Source: a virus
Direction: 5' to 3' (one strand)
IMG/VR virus record: IMGVR_UViG_3300042868_010500
Coordinates: 1 to 23,663 of that record
DNA length: 23,663 bases
In this document: piece by piece, positions 1-9,353 of the stretch
Layout: every line of letters starts with the position of its first letter
Position numbering within the stretch: the stretch's first letter is position 1
Translations under genes and position numbers: made by a program
Notes under the pieces: generated by a model
The model's input: only the letters and a program-made list of their open reading frames with translations
Database searches by the model: none
Told to the model about the DNA's origin: nothing

Positions 1-41
1 ACCACGAGCGCGAGGAAGAACGCGACCTCGGCCCGACTCAC
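1..41 (-). CDS. Start of a hydrophobic protein, cut by the window edge
   Basis: A GTG codon at 41-39 overlaps the TGA of the amidase gene in a GTGA arrangement, the same junction used at many other places in this operon. The 13 codons visible read MSRAEVAFFLALV and then run out of the window. The stretch is hydrophobic, so the gene may encode a membrane protein, and its place directly after the endolysin would suit a holin or other lysis accessory. That role is inference from position; too little sequence is present to assign a family. Confidence rests mainly on the overlap and the open frame. Confidence 0.45.
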   Translation of the reverse strand, partial: MSRAEVAFFLALV

Positions 42-742
42 GGCAGCAGGCCGTCCGGGCCAAGCGCCACGCCCATCCAGCCTGCGTCGAGGAGAGCGCG
101 GAACGGCGCCGCGCCGGGGTCGCCGGGGCCGCGCACCGACGCCGGGACGAGCTGACAGTGGCCCACGACGCCACCCCACCGCTCGCCCCGCCCGCCGAGC
201 AGGGCGCCGCCGGTGCCGCGCGCGGCCTCGCTCAGCAGCGCCCGCACGGGGCGCAGGAGCGGGGCGCCGACGCCGTCGACGAGCACCCGCCGAGGGATCG
301 CCAGCGCGTCCGAGATCGCCGCGCAGACGATCACGAGAGCGTCGAGCTGCGCGCGCCAGAGGTCGGGCGAGTCGGGGTGCTGCACCAGCTCGATGCCCAC
401 GGTCCATCCGTTCGCGTGCCCCGCGTGCCAGCACAGCCACGTCGCGAGGTCGGCCTGCTGCAGCACCGTCCCATCGGAGTCGATCGTGAGGTGCCACGAC
501 ACCTCGCGGTCGGTGGTGCTCTGGTATCGCGCGAGGGCCTCAGCGCGAGTGCTCGGGCGCCCGCCGTCGCGGATCTTCGCGCCGTCGACGCCGCGGGTGG
601 TGTGCAGGCAGATCGCGCGGACCTTCGACGCCGCGCGCCGCACGCCGTCGGTCACGGGCATGACGCGCGGGTCGCCGTCCTGCCACGTCGCGCCGTCGGT
701 CCACGGCACGGAGTGCCGACGCCCATCGATGATCAGATCCAT
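38..742 (-). CDS. N-acetylmuramoyl-L-alanine amidase endolysin (Amidase_2 type)
   Basis: This 234-aa protein looks like a zinc amidase that cuts the bond between N-acetylmuramic acid and L-alanine in peptidoglycan at the end of infection. The family layout is visible: a first zinc histidine in CLHTTRG (H47), the core strand SWHLTIDSDG (82-91), WHAG (105-108), GIEL (116-119) and a late VVGHCQLVP with H195, followed by D208 in GPGDPG as the likely third ligand. There is no signal peptide or anchor, so it would need a holin to reach the wall. The ATG at 742 has GGGAG about 7 bases upstream and overlaps the end of a 50-aa coiled-coil gene by 10 bases. The first 35 residues or so precede the fold and have no assigned role. 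The family call is strong; substrate specificity is inferred. Confidence 0.85.
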   Translation of the reverse strand: MDLIIDGRRHSVPWTDGATWQDGDPRVMPVTDGVRRAASKVRAICLHTTRGVDGAKIRDGGRPSTRAEALARYQSTTDREVSWHLTIDSDGTVLQQADLATWLCWHAGHANGWTVGIELVQHPDSPDLWRAQLDALVIVCAAISDALAIPRRVLVDGVGAPLLRPVRALLSEAARGTGGALLGGRGERWGGVVGHCQLVPASVRGPGDPGAAPFRALLDAGWMGVALGPDGLLP

Positions 743-885
743 GCGAGGCTCTCCCGGCGCCGAGCGGCGCGCTCCTGCTCACTGGCGACCCACTGCGCGA
801 TCTGCTCGAGCTGCGCCCGCAGCCGCTCGACCTCCGCGCGGAGCTCTGCGACTTCGACCTCGAGGAGAGCCTCTCGCTGCGTCAC
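733..885 (-). CDS. Small coiled-coil protein, 50 aa
   Basis: This short gene starts with GTG at 885-883, sharing GTGA with the stop of the upstream lipoprotein gene, and ends at TGA 735-733 inside the start of the amidase gene. A GGGGG stretch lies about 7 bases before the start. The product is almost one amphipathic helix: L8, V12, L15, V19, L22, L26, I29 and V33 alternate at 4 and 3 residues, a clean coiled-coil a/d pattern, with charged residues between. The C-terminus is arginine rich (RAARRRES). There is no membrane segment or signal peptide. It lies between a lipoprotein and an endolysin, so a lysis accessory role is possible, but no family was recognised. The tiling overlaps and clean heptads make it a real gene despite its size. 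Confidence 0.6.
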   Translation of the reverse strand: MTQREALLEVEVAELRAEVERLRAQLEQIAQWVASEQERAARRRESLAWI

Positions 886-1070
886 TCCACGACCCCCGCG
901 TCGACGACGCGCACGGGCGTCTCGCAGGCGCCGCCGTCGAGGTGATGCGCGTGCACCTCCTGGGCGGTCGTGATGGCGACCTCAAGCGCCTTCAGAGCGA
1001 GTTGCAGGGCGGTCGAGCCGCAGCCTGCCAGCGAGAGAGACAGAGCGACGAGAGTCAGCGCGCGAGCCAT
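882..1070 (-). CDS. Small lipoprotein, candidate outer-membrane spanin
   Basis: This 62-aa product has a hydrophobic N-terminus (MARALTLVALSLSLAGC) ending in a canonical lipobox LAGC, so C17 should be lipidated after signal peptidase II cleavage. Residue +2 is Gly, not Asp, which fits outer-membrane sorting in Gram-negative hosts. The mature part is about 46 residues and carries one more Cys. GGAG lies 6 bases before the ATG, and the gene overlaps the end of the receiver-domain gene by 16 bases. A tiny lipoprotein in a phage lysis cassette suggests an o-spanin (Rz1-like) role, but it lacks the proline richness typical of Rz1, and no separate i-spanin was recognised nearby. Lipoprotein is well supported; spanin is inference. 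Confidence 0.65.
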   Translation of the reverse strand: MARALTLVALSLSLAGCGSTALQLALKALEVAITTAQEVHAHHLDGGACETPVRVVDAGVVE

Positions 1071-1735
1071 GATCCACTCCGGAGGTTGTCGAGCAGCAGC
1101 GGGAGCACCATCGCGCCGCGCGCGCCGCCGCCGCCGCCGCCGCGCAGTGCTTCGAACAGGTTGTGCGGCCTGACGCCGGCGACCAGCAGGATCGCTGCGG
1201 TGGTGCCCACGTCGAGCCGCTGGATCTTCGCGAGGTAGACGATCGCGGCGAGGGCGCCCGCGTAGATGGCGCGATCTGCGAGGACGCGGATGCGATCGCG
1301 CCACGGGTCGTGCGCCGTCGTCGGCGGCTCGACCGTCGGCAGAGCGGGGAGCGAGAGCGGGGAGGGCGGCGGCATCGTCGGTCTCCGGTGTGGCGTCGAC
1401 GCGAGTCGCTCGACGCGCGCCAGCAGATCCTCGGGCTCGAAGGGCTTGGTCACGAGATCCCACCCGTGGGCGATCGCGGCGTTGCGAGCGTCCGCTTCGG
1501 GCGCGCCCGACACCAGCAGCGCGGGGAGCTTCGCGGCGCGCAGGCGCTCGCGCAGAGCCGCCGACGGCGCGTCGAGGACGAGGTCAAGCACCACGGCCTC
1601 GGGCAGCGACTCGTCGAGCGCGGAGAGCGCCGCAGCGACGGTCGATGCCTCGCGGACGTCGTGCCCCGCCTCGCGCAGCAGCGACGAGACCATCGTCAGC
1701 AGCGCGGGCTGGTCTTCGATGACGAGGAGCCTCAC
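1055..1735 (-). CDS. Response-regulator receiver domain joined to a hydrophobic hairpin
   Basis: The first 112 residues of this 226-aa protein form a complete CheY-like receiver domain: MRLLVIEDQ with acidic pair E7/D8, phosphoacceptor D51 in VVLDLVLD, S76 in LLVSGAPE, and K97-P98 in VTKPF. All residues normally needed to accept phosphate from a histidine kinase are present. A Pro-rich linker (about 115-142) leads to two hydrophobic stretches (about 157-170 and 176-188) that could form a membrane hairpin, then a Gly6 run and a short tail. No DNA-binding output domain is present. The GTG start at 1735 shares GTGA with the upstream fibre gene stop and has GAGG 5 bases before it. It heads the lysis cassette, so the C-terminal half may be holin-like. 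The receiver call is firm; a lysis role is inference. Confidence 0.8.
   Translation of the reverse strand: MRLLVIEDQPALLTMVSSLLREAGHDVREASTVAAALSALDESLPEAVVLDLVLDAPSAALRERLRAAKLPALLVSGAPEADARNAAIAHGWDLVTKPFEPEDLLARVERLASTPHRRPTMPPPSPLSLPALPTVEPPTTAHDPWRDRIRVLADRAIYAGALAAIVYLAKIQRLDVGTTAAILLVAGVRPHNLFEALRGGGGGGARGAMVLPLLLDNLRSGSWLAR
1372..1390 (-). promoter_or_regulatory. Possible internal ribosome binding site and start in the receiver gene
   Basis: Inside the receiver gene, on the minus strand, GGAG is followed 7 bases later by an in-frame ATG at 1375-1373 (Met121). This lies in the linker between the receiver domain and the hydrophobic hairpin. Translation from here would give a 106-residue protein with only the Pro-rich leader and the hydrophobic part, a size and shape like a small holin. 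The spacing is good, but GGAG occurs often by chance in DNA this rich in GC. Confidence 0.35.
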
Positions 1736-2481
1736 AGCGACCTCGCCGCCTGCACGTCGAGCACGTCGACCGTGAGCCCGCTCGAAACCGACGTGTCGAG
1801 CGTGCCGACGAGCACCTGGCAGTGCGTGCCCCACGTCACCGCCGACGCGGCGTCGCTCGACCGCGACTGCGCCACCGTCCACGAGGTCGGCAGAGCGCCC
1901 GCGCTCCCGACGCCCCAGAGCGTGCGGTAGCCAGCGTCGCTGCCACGGATGCGCAGCCACAACTGCCCGCCGGTGCGCTGCCCCGAGGTCGGCCCCGTGG
2001 TCGTGCTGATGTCCGTCGGCGACGCGGACGCGACGCGGTAGCTGATCGCGCTCCCGTTGGTGTCGATCTCAAGCGTCACGTTGTCGCTCGCGCCGACGCC
2101 CGCGACGAGGCGCACGCGCGTCTGCGCGCTGCCGTCGCCGGTGAGCACCTGCACTCGCACCGCCACGTCCCACTGCGACGCTCCCGGCAGGAGGTCCGTG
2201 CGCGTCACCGACTGCGCCCCGGCGGCGCTTGCTGGCACGGCGAAAGACAGCCGCGAGGGAGACGTGCCCTGCGAGACGGAAGCGCCGCCGGTTGCCGTGC
2301 CCTCCGTCCATGCGGTGAGCGTCACCTGTTCCATGAGAGTGAGCGCGAGCGTAGCGTTGAGCTCGGTGATGCGCGTCGGGTCGTCGGCGAGCGCGTCACC
2401 GAGGCCCTCCCACACCTGATCGCCAGTGGGCGCGCCGCCGCCGCCGCCGAGAATGCCGGGGGATGAGGTGTTGATGCTCAT
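1732..2481 (-). CDS. Tail fibre or appendage protein with shared N-terminal tag
   Basis: This 249-aa protein begins MSINTSSPGILGGGGG, almost the same start as the fibre protein encoded at 2684-3577. After a Gly hinge and a short region with an LNATLALTLM helix, the rest is Ser/Thr/Val/Gly rich and predicted to be beta structure, with a late LWLRIRGS...RTLWGVGS...PTSWTV pattern that resembles jelly-roll or laminin-G-like appendage domains. The start was set at the ATG at 2481, which overlaps the previous stop as ATGA; a Met five codons upstream would run into the earlier gene. A fibre or receptor-binding role is inferred from position and composition. Confidence 0.6.
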   Translation of the reverse strand: MSINTSSPGILGGGGGAPTGDQVWEGLGDALADDPTRITELNATLALTLMEQVTLTAWTEGTATGGASVSQGTSPSRLSFAVPASAAGAQSVTRTDLLPGASQWDVAVRVQVLTGDGSAQTRVRLVAGVGASDNVTLEIDTNGSAISYRVASASPTDISTTTGPTSGQRTGGQLWLRIRGSDAGYRTLWGVGSAGALPTSWTVAQSRSSDAASAVTWGTHCQVLVGTLDTSVSSGLTVDVLDVQAARSL

Positions 2482-2687
2482 GGCATCACCCAGCATCCCG
2501 GCGCGGGCACGTCGCTCCGCTCGGCGCGCGAGACGATCGTCACGTATGAGGGGTTGAGCACGCAGAGCGCGACGGTGTCGACGGGGAGGTCGAGGTTCTC
2601 GTCGCTGGTCTCGGTGACGATCGCCACGCGCGGCGTCGTCGGCTCCGCGATTGAGTAGTAGCGGACCTGTGTGCCGAGGATCGTCAT
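2478..2687 (-). CDS. Small hypothetical protein between two fibre genes, 69 aa
   Basis: This 69-aa frame starts with an ATG that overlaps the previous stop as ATGA (2687-2684), and its own stop overlaps the next ATG in the same way. The protein begins MTILGTQVRYYSIAEPTTPR and continues with VDTVALCVLNPSYVTIV, with alternating hydrophobic residues suggesting a small beta fold, and ends with Cys-Trp-Val-Met-Pro. No signal peptide, membrane segment or known motif is visible. It may be a small structural partner or chaperone for one of the flanking fibres. The tiling overlaps on both sides support a real gene; the function is unknown. Confidence 0.6.
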   Translation of the reverse strand: MTILGTQVRYYSIAEPTTPRVAIVTETSDENLDLPVDTVALCVLNPSYVTIVSRAERSDVPAPGCWVMP

Positions 2688-3577
2688 GGTGCCACTCCGA
2701 GGATGCGGTACTGCAGGTCGCGCCACCGCGTCGTGAACGTTCCGCTGCCGACGTTGGCGCGCCCTGCGCGCACGCTGAGGTGCGTGAGGTAGCCGCCAGA
2801 GAGCGAGGTCAGCGTGGTCGCGACAGTGGACGTTGTCGTCCACGTCGTCGGCGGGGTCGAGCCGCCGGTGTCAGCGCCCCACGATGCCGAAGCGTAGCTC
2901 GGCGTCACGATGATGCGCAGCCAGTTGCCCGCCGTCACGCTGATCGCGCCGGAGGTCGCCACGAGGCTGTATCCGCTGCCGTGCGCTTGATAGAGCCCCA
3001 CGCTCCCGAGACGATCGACCTGCACAAGGTAGCCGTAGCTGTCGCCGTTGCTGCCGAGGGAAAGCGCGGAATACCAGTCGGTCGCGGGTGCGCCGCTCGT
3101 CACGTCGAAGCGCCCGATGAACTCGACCGCGGGACACTCCGCAGTCGAGATCGTCAACCGCCGCTCGCGGACGAAGCTGTTGGCGCTGTTGCTGAACGTG
3201 TGGACTGACGAGCTTCGGCTGATCGTCCCGTTGGTCTGCTGATCCGTCCAGCCCGTGTCCGGTGCCGCGAGGCGCGTGCCCGCCGTCGAGGTGCCGGTGA
3301 TCCCCAGCGCCGTGTTGAGCGAGGCGACGCTGATGTCGGCAGAGAGGTCGAGCGTTGCGATGGTGCGCGAGGTCTGCACCGCGCCGACGATGCGCGAGTC
3401 GTTGCCCTGCGCGACCTTGCCCGAAGTCGTGCCGAAATCAACCGTGAGCGTGCGGTCGGCGCTCAGGTCGCCACCGCCGGTGAGGCCCGTGCCTGCGGTG
3501 ATGGTGCGCGTGCCCGGCACGTCGCCGCCGCCACCGCCGCCGCCGAGGATCCCCGGCGTCGAGGAGTTGATGCTCAC
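2684..3577 (-). CDS. Tail fibre protein with TGLTGGGDL repeat motif
   Basis: This 297-aa protein starts MSINSSTPGILGGG followed by more Gly. It then carries TITAGTGLTGGGDLSADRTL (about 25-44) and a following GNDSRIVGA, a signature seen widely in tail fibres and other phage appendages. From about residue 105 it is rich in Ser, Thr, Gly and Trp, with an NWLRIIVTPSYASASWGAD segment that suggests a carbohydrate-binding-like jelly roll at the tip. The GTG at 3577 shares GTGA with the upstream stop. Receptor binding is inferred. The N-terminal tag is shared with the protein encoded at 1732-2481, which may mean both dock on the same tail component. Confidence 0.72.
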   Translation of the reverse strand: MSINSSTPGILGGGGGGGDVPGTRTITAGTGLTGGGDLSADRTLTVDFGTTSGKVAQGNDSRIVGAVQTSRTIATLDLSADISVASLNTALGITGTSTAGTRLAAPDTGWTDQQTNGTISRSSSVHTFSNSANSFVRERRLTISTAECPAVEFIGRFDVTSGAPATDWYSALSLGSNGDSYGYLVQVDRLGSVGLYQAHGSGYSLVATSGAISVTAGNWLRIIVTPSYASASWGADTGGSTPPTTWTTTSTVATTLTSLSGGYLTHLSVRAGRANVGSGTFTTRWRDLQYRILGVAP

Positions 3578-5907: not shown

Positions 5908-8484
5908 CTAGGGCGCGATCGGGCGGGCGGCGTCGGAGGTCGAGTCGATCACCAGCGTCGTGTCATCGCCGACGAACATCCAGTTGCTCTTTTGCGTAGC
6001 CGTAAGCGTCCAGTATTGAGCGAAGCGCACGTCGACCCAACCCGCAGCGATCTTCGACTGCGCGGTCGCCGACATGGCCGACGTGAACGTCAGCCGGTTG
6101 GTGCCGGTGTCGACCGACTGCACCGTCAGTTGCTCGGTCCACAGCGTCGTCGTGTCGCGCTCGATCAGATCGACCACGTCGCCCGCGGTGAACGTACTCG
6201 CGTCCACCCCGCCAGAGTAGGTGTACGCGCCGGTCACGTAGCCGCTGGCGAGTTGCAGCACCGTCGACGAGACAACCGAGTCGGCCTTGCCGCACGGTGC
6301 GTAGGGGTACGACTCGCGCGGGAAGAGCAACGCCTCGACCTTCATTTGCGCGCGTTCAAGGTCGAGCGTCCGCGCGTAGACGATGCCGATCTTCGAGGTC
6401 AATCCGCGCCCGCCCGAGCCGTTAGGGAGCATCCACTCCGTAACCTTGATCAACGACCCTAGCTCTACCGTGTCCCAAAGCGACGCCTTGAGCGTCAGCG
6501 TCGCGACGGCCAGCGGCTCGGACCAGAGCTCGAGGCGCCCGACGACCTCGCGCGCGAAGGCATAGGGGTCGTCGACAGGCAGGCTCTGGTCTTCGATTCC
6601 GGCGAGCTCGACAGTGATCGTGCGCCCCGGCCCGTAGCGCGCACGACTCTGTTGCAGCGTCGCCTCGACGTTGAGGGCCTCGCCCTTGATTTTGAGTCGG
6701 TTGACGATGCCGTCGGCCCAGCGCGACCACGTCGGCAGGCCGATGAGATCAGTGGACGTGAGCGTCACCACCGGCGCCGCGCCCGCCGCGGGCCAGCCCC
6801 AGGCGTGAATCGCAAGGCGCCCCGAGCGCGTGACCGGCGTGCACCCGTGCAGCAAGCTGCACTCGGTCACGACGGACCCGAGGGTGCGGTCGCCGTCGAA
6901 GAGCCACTCTCGCGCCGTGCGCAGGCCCGCCGTCGCGCGCAGCGCCGGTCCTGAGGTGCCCGAGGCGTAGACGCTCGACCAGTCCCAATCCTCGGCGCGC
7001 GCGTCCTCGCAGAGCCCGAGGACGCTGTTCTTCAGCCCGAGCAGCCAGTGATCAGTGCGCACCCGGTAGCAGACCTTGAGCACCGGCGAGCCGAGCAGCA
7101 CCCATGTGTGCGGCACGGTCCCCGTGCGCGGCTGAGGCACCTGAGCACCGGCCTTGCGCGGCGCCCACACGATCGCAGAGCCAGAGATGTGCGGGCCTAG
7201 TGCTGCCGTGTCCGCGGTGGTGACGCGCGTCAGCAACGCCGACCACGACTCGTCCAGATGGAGCCGAAGCGCCGGCTGCTCGGCCGTCGTCAGAGACGCC
7301 TCGGTCGTCGTCGTCTCGGTCCACGTCGTCGGCAGCGAGGCGAGAGACGACACGAGATAGGAGACGTTGCCTGCGGCGGTCGACACGAGAGTTACGCCGC
7401 CCTGAGGCACCTCGCTGAGCCGCGCAGTGACCGCGTGGCGCGTGCCGTTGGCGCGAGCATCCTGCGTGATCCCTGCCGTCTGCGCCCACGCGGCCTCGAC
7501 TCTGAAAGGCAACGTCGAGTCAGCGTTGATGCCGACGCCGTCGGCGGTGCGCGTGTAGTGGTAGACGACTCGCTGACCCGCGGTGTTGGTGAGCGACGAG
7601 GCAAGGTCGGCGTGCTGCCGAAACAGCAGTTCGAGCGTGCGGTAAGACCCGCAGGTTCGGACGTTGACTCGCGTCCCGGTCGCAGGATCGGTGCCGCCAC
7701 TGAGCGTCGTGCGAGAGACGAACAACTGCTGCCCGCCGGTGTTGCTCTCGTTGACGTTGCCGCTGTTGTAGCCAGCGAGGCGCGTCGACCCAGTGTTGCC
7801 GCCGATGCCGTTGCTCGCCTGCACCTGCCAGAGCGGGTCGCAGGCCATGGCGTAGCGCGCGCCCTCCGCGGCGAGCGCAGGCGCTCGCACCGCGTAGCCC
7901 GACCAGTAGAGCGTCGCGGTAGTGCCCTCGACGCGCCAGAGGTTGACCTTGCGCCGCGTCGTCCACGGCACGCTCGCGTAGAGCTCCGGGAAGTACCCCG
8001 TCGCCGCGTCGACCGTGTGCGCGATCGCCTTCGTGCCGAGGCGCCCTCGCGTGACCGTCAGGACGTTGCCAGCGACCGCGGTGACCCGCACGCACTCCGT
8101 GTTGAGCCAGGCGAAACATGGCGCGGTGAACAGCGCCCCGTTGCCGACGGTGATCGAGGTCGCGCTTGCGGTGATCGTCGAGGCCAGCGGCGTCGAGGTC
8201 AGTAGCGCCGCGTCACGCCCCGCGAGGCTGGTCAGGAGCGGTGAGCCGCCTGCCGTCGTCGCGGCGTCGTGCAGCTCGAACGACAACGGCGACACCTCAA
8301 GCTCGCCCTCAAGGGGCTTCGCGCGCTCGCTGATGGTGCCGCGCGGCGGCGACAGCCACCCGTTGGCGTAGACCACGCCGGTCTCGCCCGCCCACCAGAG
8401 CGGCGACGAGCTCGTCAGAGTCCCCTGATCGTGCGTCGTGAAGACGTGCGGAACGCCCGTGATGGTCAGTGCCCAGCCGCTCAC
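5908..8484 (-). CDS. Large tail hub or baseplate protein, 858 aa
   Basis: At 858 aa this is the largest protein in the window and sits where the central tail hub or tip protein is normally encoded, two genes after the tape measure. At 97-160 it carries a recognisable phage module: a threonine-rich strand (STITASATSITVGNGALF), a middle CVRVTAV, then VLTVTRGRLGTKAIAH. A GDVVDLI...LTVQSV module near the C-terminus looks related. A segment with VELGSLIKVTE and LTSKIGIVYARTLDLERAQM resembles the hub-domain region that deals with position-dependent coefficients in tail hubs. The GTG start overlaps the upstream stop as GTGA. It probably forms the tail tip that holds the fibres. No lysozyme or peptidase motif was spotted, so no wall-degrading activity is claimed. 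Confidence 0.65.
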   Translation of the reverse strand: MSGWALTITGVPHVFTTHDQGTLTSSSPLWWAGETGVVYANGWLSPPRGTISERAKPLEGELEVSPLSFELHDAATTAGGSPLLTSLAGRDAALLTSTPLASTITASATSITVGNGALFTAPCFAWLNTECVRVTAVAGNVLTVTRGRLGTKAIAHTVDAATGYFPELYASVPWTTRRKVNLWRVEGTTATLYWSGYAVRAPALAAEGARYAMACDPLWQVQASNGIGGNTGSTRLAGYNSGNVNESNTGGQQLFVSRTTLSGGTDPATGTRVNVRTCGSYRTLELLFRQHADLASSLTNTAGQRVVYHYTRTADGVGINADSTLPFRVEAAWAQTAGITQDARANGTRHAVTARLSEVPQGGVTLVSTAAGNVSYLVSSLASLPTTWTETTTTEASLTTAEQPALRLHLDESWSALLTRVTTADTAALGPHISGSAIVWAPRKAGAQVPQPRTGTVPHTWVLLGSPVLKVCYRVRTDHWLLGLKNSVLGLCEDARAEDWDWSSVYASGTSGPALRATAGLRTAREWLFDGDRTLGSVVTECSLLHGCTPVTRSGRLAIHAWGWPAAGAAPVVTLTSTDLIGLPTWSRWADGIVNRLKIKGEALNVEATLQQSRARYGPGRTITVELAGIEDQSLPVDDPYAFAREVVGRLELWSEPLAVATLTLKASLWDTVELGSLIKVTEWMLPNGSGGRGLTSKIGIVYARTLDLERAQMKVEALLFPRESYPYAPCGKADSVVSSTVLQLASGYVTGAYTYSGGVDASTFTAGDVVDLIERDTTTLWTEQLTVQSVDTGTNRLTFTSAMSATAQSKIAAGWVDVRFAQYWTLTATQKSNWMFVGDDTTLVIDSTSDAARPIAP

Positions 8485-9353
8485 AGCGTCCCCGCTCCCG
8501 CGTAGGAGAGCTCGAACGACACATCGCGCCGCGCGTCGTAGCCGGGGATCGACAGCGTCACGCGCGCAGCCGACGCCATCTCGGGCGTGAGGTAGACCTT
8601 GTCATAGGCTGTCACACTGCCGCTCAGAACGCCCTGCAGGTCGCCCCACGTCACGCCGCACTCGAGCGTGTGCGCGGTGACCACGGTGTCGAGCGCGGAC
8701 CACGGCGGCGCCTGCGCTGGCTCGCCGGTCGACGGCGAGAGCCACCGCGACGAGACCGGGTAGGCCTGCGTCGAGGTCGACGACAGCGACGTGACGAAGC
8801 CAGCGTCCTTCGGCAGCAGCTTGAAGGCGCCCTGCCGACGCAACGTGGCGCGCCCGTCGTGCCACCCGTAGACGGTGCCGTCGGGCATCGACGACGCCGC
8901 GTACCGCTGCGGCTGGTCGACCCAGCCCGAGTCGGGGTCGACGAAGGCCGCGAAGACGCAGTGCGTCGGCTGGTGCGGCGCGGTGTACGTCGTGCCGGTC
9001 GCGGTCGACGGGACGTTGCCTGTCATCCCCAGCAGCGCCCGCAGCGTCGGCGAGCCCGAGAGGTCGATGGAGCCCGAGGTCGCGCCGAGGTACGTGAACT
9101 GAACCTTTCCCGTCGCAGGCGCGATGGTGAGCAGCCAGTTGAGCGAGCCGAGCGCCGCCGTGACGGCCGCGAGGAACTCCACTGGGTCGTTGTGCGCGGA
9201 CCCCGTGCCGTTGGCGAGGCGCGTGCGGTACCACGCCGCAGCCACGGTGCGGTTGGTCGGCCCGCCGCGGTCGTCGGTGGTCGTGATCGTCTGCGTCGAC
9301 GTGATGCGGAACGACTGCGCGAGCAGGTATCCGAGCGACTCAGCCATGGTCAT
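8481..9353 (-). CDS. Distal-tail-type protein, 290 aa
   Basis: The gene starts at ATG 9353, overlapping the tape-measure stop as ATGA; a second ATG two codons later is an alternative. The 290-aa product (MTMAESLGYLLAQSFRITST...) contains a DPVEFLAAVTAALGSLNW helix early on, then beta-rich sequence with repeated Trp/Tyr and VDPDSGWVDQPQRYAASSM. The gene directly after the tape measure usually encodes the distal tail protein that links tube and hub, so this is the position-based guess. The sequence itself did not match a family I know. It is cytoplasmic during assembly, with no signal peptide or membrane segment. Confidence 0.5.
   Translation of the reverse strand: MTMAESLGYLLAQSFRITSTQTITTTDDRGGPTNRTVAAAWYRTRLANGTGSAHNDPVEFLAAVTAALGSLNWLLTIAPATGKVQFTYLGATSGSIDLSGSPTLRALLGMTGNVPSTATGTTYTAPHQPTHCVFAAFVDPDSGWVDQPQRYAASSMPDGTVYGWHDGRATLRRQGAFKLLPKDAGFVTSLSSTSTQAYPVSSRWLSPSTGEPAQAPPWSALDTVVTAHTLECGVTWGDLQGVLSGSVTAYDKVYLTPEMASAARVTLSIPGYDARRDVSFELSYAGAGTL

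Follow-up and report, generated by a model that had tools for sequence, protein, structure and literature searches.

Why a phage lysis cassette should begin with a response-regulator receiver is the question raised by this locus. The window, i.e. the whole stretch of DNA analysed, comprises an entire IMG/VR virus record (23,663 bases; GC content 70.6%), and one of its genes joins a CheY-like receiver domain to a hydrophobic C-terminal part. When to lyse the cell is the final decision that a lytic phage takes, and the arrangement suggests that signalling kinases of the host may help set the moment of cell bursting.

Domain organization of the fusion gene

The coordinates given in the original prediction are right; the gene is encoded by the minus strand (Table 1), and its GTGA start shares 4 bp with the stop codon of the upstream tail gene. 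Residues 4–109 match Pfam Response_reg (PF00072; E=7e-12, 45.9 bits against a curated cut-off of 30.2), and the receiver is intact, as had been claimed, with all five phospho-site residues (E7, D8, D51, S76, and K97) present. The AlphaFold2 model adopts the alpha/beta receiver fold, with ten-residue mean pLDDT values of mostly 78–92 over residues 1–110 (63 for the block 51–60), and its best PDB matches in Foldseek are PhoP/PhoB receivers (E about 1e-8). The best NCBIfam match is PhoB, with a score far under that model's cut-off for true PhoB. The beta3-alpha3 region falls short of that in solved receivers by several residues, and the usual DG motif is absent.

The Pro linker of the original prediction corresponds to residues 116–143, which are disordered in the model. 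For the C-terminal half the model is of low confidence and contains no confident soluble domain; this half carries hydrophobic segments, and the absence of a DNA-binding output was borne out, since no family in Pfam or NCBIfam was matched there. The proposal of two hydrophobic segments held in part: in an insertion-energy scan, which is a rough, approximate implementation of our own, residues 155–171 form a credible transmembrane helix, whereas residues 174–190 are marginal, and the pattern is identical in every close homologue.

Table 1. Features of the fusion gene and the surrounding lysis cassette in the window
Feature	Position	Strand	Remarks
Receiver-membrane fusion gene (proposed receiver-holin)	1055..1735	-	226 aa, GTG start at 1735
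CheY-like receiver domain, residues 1-114	1394..1735	-	PF00072 7e-12, model, Foldseek, alignments to solved receivers
Pro-rich disordered linker, residues 115-143	1307..1393	-	model, sequence
Membrane module (putative holin part), residues 144-226	1055..1306	-	model, insertion-energy scan
Hydrophobic segment 1, residues 155-171, credible transmembrane helix	1223..1273	-	insertion-energy scan
Hydrophobic segment 2, residues 174-190, marginal	1166..1216	-	insertion-energy scan
Candidate internal start ATG121, receiver/linker border	1373..1375	-	GGAG at 1383-1386, 7 nt upstream
62-aa lipoprotein, lipobox LAGC, possible outer-membrane spanin	882..1070	-	kept beside fusion in L009
50-aa coiled-coil-like cassette protein	733..885	-	
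Amidase_2 endolysin, 234 aa	38..742	-	Pfam 1e-13; PHROG endolysin
First 13 codons of single-membrane-segment protein, truncated at window end	1..39	-	possible inner-membrane spanin
Tail-region gene upstream, stop overlapping fusion start	1732..2496	-	

Gene organization of the lysis cassette

The fusion heads the lysis genes, as originally described, and is followed by the lipobox lipoprotein, the coiled-coil protein, and the Amidase_2 endolysin, in this order. It is likewise the first lysis-cassette gene in the related records L007, L008, L009/L010, and L023. The protein that begins at the very end of the window is complete in L007 (7695-8162). This Cys-containing protein is conserved after the endolysin (L007:7695-8162, L009:7885-8361, and window 1-39), has one N-terminal membrane segment, and belongs to no known family; it may be the inner-membrane spanin that pairs with the lipoprotein. 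In L007, a further small protein (8159-8521) shows weak similarity (7e-4) to a PHROG family annotated as endolysin and is perhaps, judging from this match, a second lytic enzyme. On the other side of the cassette, the neighbouring tail-region genes at 1732-2496 and 2684-3577 encode near-identical N-termini, MSIN(T/S)S(S/T)PGILGGGGG, which may function as a common attachment peptide.

Conservation of the fusion in other phages

Comparison with related phages, which the original prediction had proposed, covered L007, L008, L006/L009, and L010, plus the distant L023. Full-length fusions were identified in the IMG/VR records L007 (99% identity), L008 (88%), and L009/L006/L010 (56%), and partial copies are present at the contig ends of L011 and L025. 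The phospho-site residues are kept in the full-length homologues, with position 7 being E or D. In receiver and membrane part alike, dN/dS is low: between the receivers of L009 and L010, dN is 0.01 and dS 0.32, and other close pairs also have dN/dS below one. At high GC content, where many long false ORFs occur, a chance reading frame or an assembly chimera might be suspected, but independent contigs carry the fusion at 56–99% identity with dN/dS below one, which already refutes this explanation; its probability is negligible, and that the fusion is real is virtually certain.

The downstream gene set of the window is also found in L007, and the L008 contig is cut inside the amidase. In L009, the fusion is followed by the lipoprotein (51% over 41 residues), an endolysin, and the single-membrane-segment protein (84%). 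The L009 endolysin (6935-7888) is a protein with a peptidoglycan-binding domain, unrelated to the window amidase (38-742); the endolysin has thus been swapped, with the flanking genes conserved on both sides. No match to the terminase or the 858-aa tail protein of the window was found in the L008 and L009 phages, records that may be incomplete. Both nevertheless share with the window the gene beside the cassette (2684-3577), which is about half identical. Since the cassette and this adjoining tail gene are shared despite the unmatched terminase and 858-aa tail protein, they appear to move between otherwise different phages. None of the homologues is indicated to be a virion component; they keep the membrane part beside lysis genes. 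The phages concerned are few and uncultured, and several are represented by fragments. Among them, three lineages retain the fusion, and for two of these no terminase or large tail protein in common with the window was found.

A second type of fusion in L023

L023, a 49-kb record, was found by an amidase search, its amidase being 71% identical to that of the window. Its cassette starts, again via a GTGA overlap, with a 266-residue receiver-membrane protein. The receiver is 41% identical to that of the window over 96 residues (3e-13) and keeps the acidic pair, D51, S76, and K97; its PF00072 score of 29.5 bits is just below the cut-off of 30.2, whereas 31.7 bits were obtained in a whole-record search. 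A Pro-rich linker follows, and then a membrane part that is longer than that of the window and contains roughly four hydrophobic segments. When the two membrane parts are aligned, no significant similarity results; a weak common origin of the first hairpin is conceivable. The structure predicted for the L023 fusion is too low in quality to be used.

Receiver-free counterparts in Myxococcota genomes

Amidase homologues with about 41% identity were found in genomes of Myxococcota, the phylum of a Sandaracinaceae MAG. The gene preceding the amidase in one of them (L168:6220-6999) encodes a Pro-rich N-terminus, a membrane hairpin, and a lipoprotein-like part, with no receiver. Another Myxococcota genome contains a gene 77% identical to it with the same receiver-free layout (L179:4621-5217). 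The lipoprotein part of L179 resembles the separate L023 lipoprotein (39%, 8e-8), and the next genes of L179 and L023 are similar to each other (6e-5), both values being single-pair E-values. In these Myxococcota elements, hairpin and lipoprotein-like part form one protein. These proteins share with the fusion the type of slot, the Pro-rich stretch, and the membrane hairpin; unlike the fusion, they have no receiver and their C-terminus runs into the lipoprotein-like part. The cassette of L168 has the amidase (41%) in common with the window, and that of L179 has the lipoprotein part and the next gene in common with L023. Because receiver-free hairpin proteins are found in L168 and L179, the cassette slot can be regarded as filled with or without a receiver.

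Sequence similarity between the window hairpin and the Myxococcota hairpin proteins is not significant. The original prediction had proposed looking for stand-alone phage holins homologous to residues 143–226. Sequence searches of viral contigs, genomes, annotated phages, and family libraries returned none; the only counterparts identified were positional ones of like layout. A profile search of 379 Myxococcota genomes with the membrane part returned only four weak matches (E 0.003–0.008). A match in G221 (3e-4) was rejected, as it lies in a soluble dehydrogenase-like frame. Among the receiver matches examined in sequenced genomes, no receiver followed by a membrane hairpin was found. The related receiver-free cassettes in their genomes make Myxococcota plausible hosts; host assignment via the terminase gave no support for Myxococcota.

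Is the membrane part a holin?

The gene stands beside the endolysin in a lysis cassette and encodes one clear and one marginal hydrophobic segment, in a region modelled with low confidence. No Pfam, PHROG, or NCBIfam family, holin families included, was matched by the membrane part. Holins are a functional class spanning many unrelated families, so that the missing match lowers the likelihood of membership in a known family, not that of working like a holin. In G003 and G001, no ORF of 50–400 aa other than the fusion has two or more membrane segments predicted. The scan used a loose codon-position GC filter and a cut-off lenient enough to admit the marginal second segment, a choice that can bring in rival ORFs but not hide them. 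The G003 record containing L009 (C1) is 35,393 bp long with ends identical over 127 bp (a terminal repeat), and may therefore be complete. Being the only two-segment ORF in G003 and G001 and lying where it does in the cassette, the fusion is the best holin candidate, and its membrane part probably acts as a holin.

Two alternatives deny the hole itself to this protein. It could be an antiholin or a regulator acting on a host or phage membrane protein, a role that the marginal second segment would fit and to which, we infer, a long soluble regulatory domain would be suited; the same ORF scan revealed no separate holin candidate for it to control, and we consider this role very unlikely. It could also be a membrane-anchored decoy that draws phosphate from host kinases and blunts the host stress response, while another, unrecognised protein makes the hole. 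Phage interference with two-component systems has precedent (PIT4 of phage LSL4, PMC10714779), and the receiver is an orphan, with no phage kinase found; but G003 and G001 are without another ORF of 50–400 aa having two membrane segments, and the gene lies inside the lysis cassette and stays there while other genes differ, which makes a decoy improbable.

Phosphorylation and a possible short form

No HATPase_c kinase domain, and hence no cognate kinase alongside the fusion, was found in eight phage records, some of them fragments; the phosphate would therefore have to be derived from the host. The phospho-site is intact in all lineages. A holin whose receiver serves only as a protein-interaction or dimerisation module, i.e. 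as a cytoplasmic brake or an oligomerisation aid to which phosphorylation is irrelevant, would be compatible with the shortened beta3-alpha3 region and the lost DG motif, and in the T4 holin, which has no receiver, hole formation is governed by soluble domains (PMC12162936, PMC11413866). On the other hand, all five catalytic positions are kept between receivers only 41% identical, and we regard an interaction-only role as unlikely. Pseudo-receivers commonly lose some catalytic positions. A holin in which the receiver acts as a phospho-switch on lysis is the reading to which we incline slightly.

An in-frame start preceded by a Shine-Dalgarno-like tetramer is present at the receiver/linker border in each lineage: ATG121 with GGAG in the window and L008, GTG122 with GAGG in L009 and L010, and ATG117 with GGAG in L023. 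The chance of such a start in three lineages is about 0.0004 if a stretch of 15 codons is considered, or 0.009 with 45 codons, calculated post hoc with a background of 0.5% per codon from the window genes, for lineages that are not fully independent. From these signals, translation could yield a receiver-free form. The predicted short product would resemble the receiver-free Myxococcota proteins, which open with a Pro-rich stretch.

Proposed mechanism

The C-terminal hairpin (155–171 and 174–190) would be inserted into the inner membrane, the flexible Pro-rich linker would tether the receiver on the cytoplasmic side, and the fusion protein would build up alongside the endolysin late in infection. 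D51 might be phosphorylated by host histidine kinases or small phosphodonors, and the resulting change in the receiver state (dimerisation in the PhoB/PhoP type) could alter hairpin association such that hole formation is advanced or delayed. After hole formation, the amidase would reach the wall, and the lipoprotein and the single-membrane-segment protein would help open the envelope. The short form from codon 121 may be the bare holin and the full-length protein its regulated partner, comparable with lambda's two holin products.

The full scheme, in which a holin is gated by host-kinase phosphorylation, an internal start provides a receiver-free holin, and the ratio of the forms together with the phospho-state sets the lysis time, is offered tentatively, as somewhat less likely than not. 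In favour of a phospho-gated holin, the cassette is kept while the terminase, the large tail protein, and (in L009) the endolysin differ; against it stand the missing holin-family match, the marginal second segment, the low-confidence C-terminal model, and the shortened beta3-alpha3 region without DG. The original idea of receiver-controlled lysis timing is partly supported; it is strengthened by the three lineages, by a receiver borne on two membrane parts without significant alignment, and by the receiver-free counterparts. The domain layout, the intact site, the conservation, and the gene context are direct observations, and the anatomy of the fusion is real, conserved, and unusual; holin activity, phosphorylation by host kinases and its sign (trigger or brake), the short form, and the effect on timing are what we infer.

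Comparison with known systems

The original prediction knew of no described lysis system of this kind, and our searches agree: no precedent for a receiver-holin fusion was found in the literature searched, with subscription journals largely outside its coverage. In lambda, S105/S107 are two holin products that differ by two residues. The fusion gene would resemble this dual-start holin in possibly giving two products through an internal start, but its two forms would differ by a whole receiver domain. A likeness may also be seen to T4, in which soluble domains control hole formation upon a signal: the antiholins RI and RIII, which act in lysis inhibition, regulate holin T through its soluble domains (PMC11413866, PMC12162936, PMC8385771). 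Holin T differs from the fusion in having one transmembrane helix, separate antiholins in control, and no receiver. Two-component signalling over holin-like membrane proteins is known from LytSR, which governs LrgAB (PMC2996381, PMC3507848); control there is exerted on gene expression by a separate regulator, whereas in the fusion the receiver is within the membrane protein. Known signal routes to a holin run through separate antiholins or gene expression, and a receiver-bearing holin, if true, would be a one-protein link from host two-component signalling to lysis and would provide a phospho-switchable lysis protein.

Receivers of phage origin are present in PHROGs and BFVD, and in jumbo phages a divergent Rec domain has been tied to NAD processing (PMC7824862). 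With response regulators of the PhoB/PhoP type, the fusion has the receiver fold and phosphorylation site in common; it differs from them in its shortened beta3-alpha3 region and in the membrane module that replaces the DNA-binding output, so that, if the proposed reading is true, a membrane pore would be added to the known outputs of response regulators.
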